DNA of 64,000 bases from Crassaminicella indica (GTDB lineage: Bacteria > Bacillota > Clostridia > Peptostreptococcales > Thermotaleaceae): contig NZ_CP078093.1 in the NCBI RefSeq assembly GCF_019203185.1, positions 868,001 through 932,000 of the forward strand, read 5' to 3'. The translations under genes and the position numbers were made by a program. Each line of letters opens with the position of its first letter. The stretch's first letter is position 1. Below are positions 10,584 through 15,252 of this stretch, piece by piece. The notes beneath the pieces were generated by a model. The model was not told where the DNA came from. It was given only the letters and a program-made list of their open reading frames with translations, and did no database searches.

Positions 10584-10817
10584 CTACTTACTTAACATTT
10601 CCTTTACTTCATCCTTCGAAACCACTCTTCCAGAAGCTTTCACAGCTCCATCTACTACTATAGCTGGAGTTTTCATTACTCCAAAGGATAAAATCTCCTT
10701 CATTTCTGTTACCTTTTCAAACTCTGCATCAATTCCTAGTTCTTTCGCTGCCTGTACTGCATTTTCATAAAGTGCTGTACAGTTTTTACATCCTCCACCT
10801 AAAATCTTAATATTCAT
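10584..10817 (-). CDS. Small thioredoxin-like redox protein (MTH895/TM0996 type)
   Basis: 77 aa with the N-terminal MNIKILGGGCKNCTAL, giving a redox-active C-K-N-C, and the cis-Pro region VMKTPAIVVDG. These small single-domain thioredoxins commonly sit beside ArsP/YraQ-type permeases and ArsR regulators. Here it is the last gene of an arsR - permease - thioredoxin operon, 11 bp after the permease. It probably reduces the permease or a metal(loid) substrate. ATG preceded by GGAGGG. Confidence 0.85.
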   Translation of the reverse strand: MNIKILGGGCKNCTALYENAVQAAKELGIDAEFEKVTEMKEILSFGVMKTPAIVVDGAVKASGRVVSKDEVKEMLSK

Positions 10818-10828
10818 AAATAACCCTC

Positions 10829-11776
10829 CTATAAAATAATATTAAATAAATACCCTACAAATATAATAGATATTCCTGTAATAGTAATAAATATCCCAAT
10901 AAGCTTTGGTTTCATCACCTGCTTTAAAAGAATCATTTCAGGCAATGATAAAGCTACTACACTCATCATGAACGAAAGAGCTGTTCCTACTCCTACCCCT
11001 TTATTAATCAAAGCCTCTACAATAGGCACTGTTCCTACTGCATTTGAATAAAGAGGAATTCCTAATACAACTGCTACAAATACTGCCAATGGATTATTAG
11101 GTCCTGCATATTTTACTAAAAAATCCTCTGGAGCATAACCGTGAATCCATGCCCCTATACCAATTCCTAATATTACATAAATCCATACTCTCTTTACAAT
11201 ATCTTTTACTGCATTAAAAGCAAATTTTACTCTTTTTTTATGATTCATCTCTTCGATGACTGCTTCACCCATATGCATCTGATAAACATATTCTTCTACT
11301 AAATGCGTTAAATTAAGCTTTTCAATAACAATTCCTGCAACAATTCCTATCACCATTCCTGCTGCCGTATAAAGAAATGCTATCTTAAATCCAAAGCTTA
11401 TGAATAAAAATCCTAATGCAATTTCATTAACAATAGGTGATGTAACTAAAAATGTAAATGTAACCCCAAGTGGAATACCCGATTCCACAAAGCCTATGAA
11501 TATAGGCACTGTCGAGCATGATCAGAAAGGAGATAATACTCCTAATATAGCTGCTGCTACATGTGCCCAAATACCACCAAACTTTGAAAGCATTCCTTTT
11601 ACTTTTTCTGGTGGAAAATAGCTTCTCACATAAGAAATAGTGAAAATCATAAAGCTAAGAAGTAAAATGATTTTTAGTGTATCATATATGAAAAAATTTA
11701 CACTATCTCCTAATCTAGAATGTAAATCTAGCCCTAATAACTTTTCTACAAACCAATCGGCAAATCCTTTTAACAT
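10829..11776 (-). CDS. ArsP/YraQ-type permease with an in-frame UGA (probable selenocysteine)
   Basis: Two same-frame halves, 11776-11525 and 11521-10829, are separated only by one TGA at 11522-11524. Read through, they give a 315-aa membrane permease (DUF318/ArsP type). Residue 85 lies in GVLSPF-U-SCSTVPIFIGF; in this family the motif is PFCSCS, so the UGA replaces a conserved Cys. Everything around it is intact, which favours selenocysteine over decay. Start chosen at 11776 (MLKGFADWF), eight bases after GGGAGG; an upstream extension to 11809 lacks a site. The family exports organoarsenicals or other metal(loid)s. The second gene of the operon after arsR. Confidence 0.75.
11470..11524 (-). 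promoter_or_regulatory. Candidate bacterial SECIS region
   Basis: Directly after the UGA, the mRNA can form two hairpins. H1 is GCCUAU-AUUC-AUAGGC (11507-11492), whose loop starts 20 nt after the UGA. H2 is GUGGAAU-CGGGU-AUUCCAC (11488-11470), with a G-rich loop 40 nt after the UGA. Known bacterial SECIS elements place a G-containing apical loop roughly 16-37 nt downstream. H1 has the right distance but a poor loop; H2 has the better loop but is slightly far. Confidence 0.4.
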
Positions 11777-11819: not shown

Positions 11820-12146
11820 TTATTTTTTCTTCATTTCTAATTGTTCATGTGCCTCTTTTAATTTTTTTGCTAAAATATCCTGTACTACCTCTAAAACCGT
11901 ATATATTTCTCTATATCTTACACTATATAAAACCTGTAGTCCTTCCTTTCTGCTTGAAAGTATACCCTGATCCTTTAAAATCTTAAGATGCTGAGATACA
12001 TTTGATTGCTCTAATTCTAAATCTTCATATATGTGACATACACAAAGCGCTTCTTCATCTTTCAACCTCTCAAGAATTTGTATTCTAGTTGGATGAGCTA
12101 ATGCTTTTAATAGTGATGAAGATAATTCATAATACATTGCATTCAT
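11820..12146 (-). CDS. ArsR/SmtB-family metal(loid)-responsive repressor
   Basis: 108 aa winged-helix repressor. LLKALAHPTRIQILERL, then EEALCVCHIYEDLELEQSNVSQHLKILKDQG. The LCVC pair matches the Cys-Val-Cys of arsenite-type (alpha-3) sensors. It opens the operon arsR - UGA permease - thioredoxin, so it most likely represses it and releases on As(III) or a related thiophilic ion. A perfect palindrome ATATAATTATAT at 12179-12190, upstream of its start, is a possible operator. GGAG site seven bases before the ATG. Confidence 0.88.
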   Translation of the reverse strand: MNAMYYELSSSLLKALAHPTRIQILERLKDEEALCVCHIYEDLELEQSNVSQHLKILKDQGILSSRKEGLQVLYSVRYREIYTVLEVVQDILAKKLKEAHEQLEMKKK

Positions 12147-14025: not shown

Positions 14026-15252
14026 ATGAAATTGTTTATTGGTATTGATGTTAGTTCTGAAAAACTTGACATTTGTTTTCTTGATAGTGAAGATCAAATT
14101 CTGCTTGAGATTTCACTACCAAATAATATCATTGGTGCTAGTAAAATCAAAGAGCATATTATAAGATTTACTGAGCATATCCAATATAAGCGCATCATTG
14201 TTGGTATGGAAGCCACTTCTGTTTACAGTTTTCATCCTTCAGCTTTCCTAGCAGAAGATGCTGAATTAAAGTCCTTAGGAATCGAAGTTGTTGTCATGAA
14301 TCCAAAGACCATTCATCGCTTTAAAGGACTCTTTGAAGAAGACAAAACCGATAAAATAGATGCTTACCGTATTGCAGACTTTCTTCGTTTTGATCGTTTC
14401 AATATTTCTTTGATTAAAGAAGAACAATATATGGCTTTGCAAAGATTAACTAGATCACGTTACCAGCTCATTGGTCAACTGACTGAAATGAAGCAACATT
14501 TTTTAGAAAATCTTTATTACAAATGTAATACCCTCACTAAAGAAATCGATACATCTGTCTTTGGTTCAACTATGATGGACTTACTAACAGACTCTATGTC
14601 TCTTGAAGACATTGCCAATATGTCTTTGGAAGATTTGGCAACTGTTTTACAACAAAAAGGTCGCGGTCGCTTTAGCAATCCTCAAAAGCTTGCAAAGTCA
14701 CTTTCCAAAGCCATTAGAGACTCTTATCGACTAGGAAAAGTCATGAAGAATTCAGTCGATGTTGTCTTAGCTTCATACGCTATGATGATCAAAACTATAA
14801 AAAAGCAAATCAAAGAACTTGATAAAGCTATTCAGGCACTGTTTGAAGTTCTGCCCGAATCTAAATCATTGCTCAGTATTCCTGGTATTGGACCAGTTTA
14901 TGCTGCTGGTATCATCGCCGAAATCGGTCAAATTGAACGATTTGAAAATGAAGCGAAGATTGCCAAGTATGCAGGTCTTTACTGGAAACGAAAACAATCC
15001 GGCAATTTTGAAGCTGAAAGAACGACTATGACCAAAACGGGGAATCATTACCTTCGTTATTACTTGATTGAAGCTGCCAATTCAGTTATGCGAAATGAAC
15101 CCGTTTATAGAGAATACTATCTCAAAAAGTATCATGAAGTTCCCAAACATCAACATAAAAGAGCCCTCGTCCTTACCGCAAGAAAATTTGTGCGCATGGT
15201 GGATGTGCTGCTACGCAATCACCAACTTTATGCACCTGAAAGGAGTGTATAA
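14026..15252 (+). CDS. IS110-family transposase (DEDD recombinase)
   Basis: 408 aa. The N-terminal RuvC-like DEDD domain starts FIGIDVSSEKLDI with the first Asp; EATSVY and DKTDKIDAYRIADFL carry further acidic residues. The C-terminal Transposase_20 domain has LLSIPGIGPVYAAGIIAEIG, FAKYAGL-like IAKYAGLYWKRKQSG and the TKTGNHYLRYYLIEAAN stretch with the family's conserved basic and serine region. Full length and apparently intact. AAAGGAGG ribosome site close before the ATG. Works with the upstream structured RNA as an RNA-guided recombinase by analogy with IS621. Confidence 0.92.
   Translation: MKLFIGIDVSSEKLDICFLDSEDQILLEISLPNNIIGASKIKEHIIRFTEHIQYKRIIVGMEATSVYSFHPSAFLAEDAELKSLGIEVVVMNPKTIHRFKGLFEEDKTDKIDAYRIADFLRFDRFNISLIKEEQYMALQRLTRSRYQLIGQLTEMKQHFLENLYYKCNTLTKEIDTSVFGSTMMDLLTDSMSLEDIANMSLEDLATVLQQKGRGRFSNPQKLAKSLSKAIRDSYRLGKVMKNSVDVVLASYAMMIKTIKKQIKELDKAIQALFEVLPESKSLLSIPGIGPVYAAGIIAEIGQIERFENEAKIAKYAGLYWKRKQSGNFEAERTTMTKTGNHYLRYYLIEAANSVMRNEPVYREYYLKKYHEVPKHQHKRALVLTARKFVRMVDVLLRNHQLYAPERSV

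Follow-up and report, generated by a model that had tools for sequence, protein, structure and literature searches.

A predicted selenocysteine-containing ArsP-type permease and a conserved RNA hairpin behind its UGA codon

The window analysed here, a 64,000-nucleotide stretch of the Crassaminicella indica genome, contains a permease gene that almost certainly encodes a full-length selenoprotein, with the UGA at codon 85 decoded as selenocysteine (Sec). The original prediction of a selenoprotein is supported by three lines of evidence: the genome carries Sec machinery, relatives have UGA at the same column, and a conserved hairpin lies 3' of the UGA. Our high confidence applies to the selenoprotein claim and not to arsenic as the substrate.

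The gene, its operon and the decoding machinery

The permease ORF runs on the minus strand from an ATG at 11776, with an AGGGAGG ribosome-binding site close 5' of it, to a TAA at 10829, and comprises 315 codons. As had been predicted, two halves of one permease stand in the same frame, split by a single TGA: 84 codons are followed by the TGA, 230 further codons and the TAA, and there is no further damage. With the TGA translated as U, residue 85 sits in the context GVLSPF-U-SCSTVP, at the first Cys of the expected PFCSCS-type motif. The read-through protein matches PF03773 (ArsP_1) at 247 bits against a cut-off of 32.3, over model positions 5-293 of 294 and with U85-S-C87 present. Across an aligned set of 38 relatives, C85 and C87 do not vary. 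A search of the genome at E <= 1e-20 found no PF03773 copy besides the Sec permease. The operon had been described as intact, with an arsR encoding a C-V-C sensor, the permease and a C-x-x-C thioredoxin, and profile matches bear this out for the CVC and CKNC proteins (Table 1).

Table 1. Features of the permease operon and of the RNA behind the UGA, in window coordinates
Feature	Position	Strand	Basis or detail
ArsR/SmtB-family metal(loid)-sensing repressor, CVC motif, first gene of operon	11820..12146	minus	NF033788, 93.7 bits
ArsP_1 (PF03773) permease, predicted to contain Sec	10829..11776	minus	translation with TGA=U; Pfam, 247 bits
UGA codon, predicted Sec85, first residue of invariant C-x-C (PF-U-SCS)	11522..11524	minus	translation; homologue alignment
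Hairpin H1 of putative SECIS	11492..11507	minus	GCCUAU-AUUC-AUAGGC; loop 20 nt after UGA
Hairpin H2, possible second SECIS part	11470..11488	minus	GUGGAAU-CGGGU-AUUCCAC; G in loop position 2; loop 40 nt after UGA
Thioredoxin_3 / MTH895-ArsE-type small redox protein, CKNC, last gene of operon	10584..10817	minus	PF13192, 93 bits; TIGR00412, 104 bits

About 2 kb from the operon, an IS110-family RNA-guided transposase gene that looks intact occupies window positions 14026-15252 on the plus strand (NF033542, 270 bits).

The genome is a single complete contig of 2.76 Mb, and all four components of Sec decoding named in the original prediction are present in it: selB (402 bits), selA directly before selB, a tRNA-Sec with anticodon UCA, and selD. 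Here selA and selD were recognised by reading ORF sequences and not by profile search. The selD gene carries its own UGA, in MAVNKRLTEMSRASG-U-AAKIG (motif SG-U-AAK); because selD needs UGA read-through, there is at least one familiar example of UGA decoding as Sec in this organism. This gene lies at L017:2455-3495 of the same genome (near 2.357 Mb), and standard ORF finding places its start behind the UGA. A tRNA-Sec was found in 19 of the 20 genomes that have a UGA-containing permease, the exception (G605) being an assembly that is 80% complete. Co-occurrence with tRNA-Sec is by itself weak evidence, since most of the Cys carriers examined have this tRNA too. Two extra tRNA-like matches in the window's genome (L002 and L003; G000:C1:68893-68977 and 550214-550298) score 49 and 48 bits, just above the Rfam tRNA-Sec cut-off, which is therefore not safe evidence of Sec decoding when used alone.

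UGA and Cys at one column of the family

Searches at the family, order, class and phylum levels yielded a set of 111 distinct homologous sequences. At the column of residue 85, 21 of them have TGA and the other 90 have a Cys codon (58 TGT and 32 TGC). The TGA genes come from 20 Bacillota genomes in 9 family-level groups, and each has exactly one stop, which is always TGA, never TAA or TAG, and always the column-85 codon. No other stop occurs in the aligned region of any of the 111 homologues. A single TGA at one codon in 21 homologous genes excludes chance, and its recurrence at this column among Bacillota relatives argues that the residue was exchanged deliberately and that the gene is not broken. 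Two odd hits that might have had stops elsewhere were checked and do not count: in both G221 and G726 the motif has Cys and the aligned region has no stop, and G221 has no tRNA-Sec.

The remaining Sec copies, the window's own set aside, span 94% identity (same genus) to 49% (other Bacillota classes). On a protein tree built without column 85 there are at least nine changes between Sec and Cys, a count that is blind to gain versus loss. In several places a Sec copy and a Cys copy are neighbours (L068 with L070, L146 with L139, and L105 with L110). Outside Bacillota, where sampling consisted of 13 loci (L054-L066) and plasmid records, all 13 loci have Cys. At least nine switches at one residue of a membrane transporter amount to a natural test of the benefit of selenium in metal(loid) handling, and the two forms can be compared within one family or even within one genome, as each of three genomes (G001, G012 and G866) has one Sec and one Cys copy.

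The original prediction had named a simple nonsense mutation, TGT or TGC to TGA in a recent pseudogene, as the alternative. A TGA is one base away from either Cys codon, and a Cys homologue as close as 85% identity exists (L067). Nevertheless, we give this explanation a negligible probability on account of the recurrence at the column and the selection on the protein. Comparison of the five closest Sec genes gives dS of 0.2-0.9, with dN/dS of 0.02-0.13 before the UGA and 0.06-0.14 behind it; the low values behind the UGA imply that this part is translated and needed. The TGA thus persists over dS of up to about 0.9 with low dN/dS on both sides. It recurs at the same column in lineages only 49-59% identical, never as TAA or TAG and never elsewhere, and a conserved hairpin accompanies it. 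Of the findings that would have spoken for decay, none appeared: the Sec machinery exists, close relatives keep the TGA, and the homologues in the tree set contain no other stop.

We also considered that the UGA is a true stop, with an 84-residue fragment and a C-terminal part that has its own start as products, or that it is subject to generic read-through or is read as Trp. An in-frame GTG (11509) just after the TGA could start a second ORF, but an informal look noticed no ribosome-binding site before it. These readings are very improbable given the alignment, in which the UGA occupies the position of an invariant Cys rather than a Trp. Conserved residues flank it on both sides, a two-part product would halve the C-x-C motif in every lineage, and the downstream hairpin tracks the UGA.

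Hairpins downstream of the UGA

Decoding of the permease UGA as Sec would be expected to involve an RNA structure (SECIS), and a hairpin 3' of the UGA is indeed conserved and under selection at synonymous sites. This hairpin, H1, has 6 bp and is formed by codons 90-95 (V-P-I-F-I-G). All six pairs are present in 21 of 21 Sec genes versus 19 of 90 Cys genes, counts that ignore relatedness; synonymous recoding at each gene's own codon usage would produce it in 3.1 of the 21 Sec genes. Two of the pairs join third codon positions, which are free to vary, and they do so in a compensatory manner: one is found as G-C, A-U, C-G or G-U and the other as U-A or G-C. Pairing holds in 120 of 120 cells, compared with 84.5% in shuffles and 25-46% when the helix is slid. 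The folding energy right after the UGA, measured against synonymous recodings, has a mean z of -2.24 in Sec genes and -0.18 in Cys genes, again with relatedness ignored. In six independent Sec/Cys contrasts on supported branches, H1 follows Sec in 4.7 (mean) and the opposite is never seen; corrected for relatedness, this association is borderline when taken alone (median sign test p 0.06). In the window itself, plain dinucleotide-shuffle folding of the region is unremarkable (z -1.56), and the signal is visible only with the synonymous-recoding test. Scanning the SECIS region against Rfam produced no meaningful match. These comparisons show that selection acts on the RNA hairpin after the UGA.

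The match to a bacterial SECIS is partial. The published model has a G in the first two loop positions, a spacing of 16-37 nt and an upper stem of 4-16 bp (PMC13188914), and we judged the fit by a constraint scan written for this analysis, not by bSECISearch. H1 agrees with the model in stem and spacing in 21 of 21 genes. Its loop has the required G only in four genes with GUUC, and in L146 if the inner pairs open; in most Sec genes the loop is AUUU, AUUC or UUUU, and the window's AUUC is without the G.

A second hairpin, H2, shows the converse pattern, with the loop G in place and the spacing outside the model. It is found in 17 of the 21 Sec genes at 40-44 nt from the UGA, with an energy of -4 kcal/mol or lower and a G at loop position 1 or 2 (loops CGGGU, GGUC, GGCU, GGU and similar). 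Synonymous recoding would give 2.5 of 21 genes under this criterion, which was picked after the sequences were seen. The four genes that have no stable H2 (L147, L148, L149 and L153) are exactly those with the H1 loop GUUC, which fits the standard model. Since H2 stands in different registers across lineages, it is not one inherited helix, and part of the H1/H2 pattern may come from composition or shared descent. In the window gene, H1 can lengthen downward into bases that H2 would need, so the two may compete.

We tentatively propose an unusual two-hairpin SECIS, a reading we think somewhat less likely to be right than wrong, in which H1 would be a folded spacer and the loop G of H2 would be recognised by SelB. 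With the 16 nt of H1 folded out, H2 would have an effective spacing of about 24-28 nt instead of 40-44 nt, which the standard model allows. Such elements would form a distinct bacterial SECIS class that arose repeatedly within one transporter family as Cys gave way to Sec, and the pattern may define a SECIS type missed by present search models.

Related families, substrate and neighbouring genes

Among the 119 prokaryotic selenoprotein families of a 2026 review is an SO_0444 family Cu/Zn efflux transporter with a UxC motif, entered on GenBank annotation only (PMC13188914). This family (NF033936; WP_014809615.1) is a related transporter family with the same U-x-C motif. Compared through model NF033936, however, the window protein scores 92.5 bits and its Sec relatives 105-114, against a cut-off of 300. 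One copy alone passes that cut-off in 300 Bacillota genomes, and it has no stop. A sister PF03773 family is thus already listed as a selenoprotein while the window's subfamily is not, and Sec in this motif is therefore an existing idea. Apart from this table entry, the literature searched contained no Sec-containing ArsP/COG0701 protein. Relative to the papers searched, what is new is the window's subfamily as a Sec form, its breadth, the repeated Cys/Sec switching and the hairpin pattern.

The window permease shares its family, its motif and an ars-type operon with the organoarsenical permease ArsP (PF03773; cluster 2, PF before C(S/T)C), in which C(S/T)C is conserved in all proteins surveyed (PMC4435449). 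It differs in the predicted Sec that replaces the first Cys of the motif. The efflux transporter SaoE (NF040736) is another PF03773-type relative; the Sec forms score 112-133 bits against its model and the window permease 115.4, below the cut-off of 325 bits, and no other Sao gene was recognised beside the permease gene. The mercuric transport protein and E1-E2 cation ATPase selenoproteins (PMC13188914) are likewise metal transporters with predicted Sec, but belong to unrelated families.

In the predicted fold (mean pLDDT 76), residue 85 lies at a break between helices 69-81 and 86-98, and a weak internal repeat pairs this break with one at PLYSNA in the protein's second half (helices 231-239 and 246-258). 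Transporters of repeated design often hold their substrate at such helix breaks. Residue 85 is a probable substrate-site residue according to this model. No solved structure matches the permease by sequence. A Foldseek search of the PDB returned weak matches only, the best being elevator-type transporters (SiaQM, E 0.06, TM 0.39), and was not used as evidence.

Under the mechanism we propose, ArsR would turn the operon on in the presence of metal(loid), and SelB with tRNA-Sec would decode UGA85 as Sec, directed by one or two mRNA hairpins just downstream. In an internally repeated transporter core, Sec85-x-Cys87 would lie where the first half has its helix break. There its selenol and thiol would together bind a soft metal(loid) destined for export, with trivalent or organic arsenic the most likely candidate. 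The CxxC thioredoxin-like protein would keep this pair reduced or hand over the substrate.

Arsenical efflux is our best guess for the permease, with other soft metals possible, and we favour arsenic as the substrate by a modest degree. That the selenoprotein moves another soft metal, or a thiol or selenium compound, is the less probable reading, though far from a negligible one. NCBI-named PF03773-type families include SO_0444 (Cu/Zn) and SaoE, with the permease well below the cut-offs of both at 92 and 115 bits; many metals are sensed by ArsR/SmtB repressors, and PF03773 proteins handle other metals too. Pointing instead to arsenic are the CVC-type ArsR, the ArsE-like thioredoxin, the ACR3 or ArsC-like genes near several Sec copies, and the export of organoarsenicals by Campylobacter ArsP (PMC4435449).

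In most Sec loci an ArsR relative lies upstream of the permease on the same strand (immediately upstream in the window's clade), and a thioredoxin-like gene adjoins the permease. The window's clade and a Cys-type copy in Ilyobacter retain the gene order arsR-permease-thioredoxin, and in several other Sec lineages the thioredoxin-like gene stands between arsR and the permease. Around L155 (G1104) neither an ArsR nor a thioredoxin neighbour was found. Genes for ACR3 arsenite exporters adjoin the Sec permeases at L149 and L150 (by NCBIfam) and at L146 (by similarity), and L051 has an ArsC-like gene. The clustering of the Sec permease with ArsR and ACR3 at L146, L149 and L150 suggests that Sec-based and ordinary arsenic exporters coexist. 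Gene callers truncate or split the permease, so many anaerobic members of the Bacillota probably have a metal(loid)-resistance permease that is wrongly annotated.

In three loci, a second candidate selenoprotein is encoded immediately downstream of the Sec-permease operon (L159:5273-5512, plus strand; L161:3478-3708, minus; L051:4213-4443, plus). It is Thioredoxin_3-like, with an in-frame TGA in a C-U motif, as in MEIRLYEQVC-U-GPSK. The motifs listed for related PF13192 selenoproteins are CxU and UxC rather than CU (PMC13188914). A protein related to these candidates, at L149:872-1114 on the minus strand, has CC instead.
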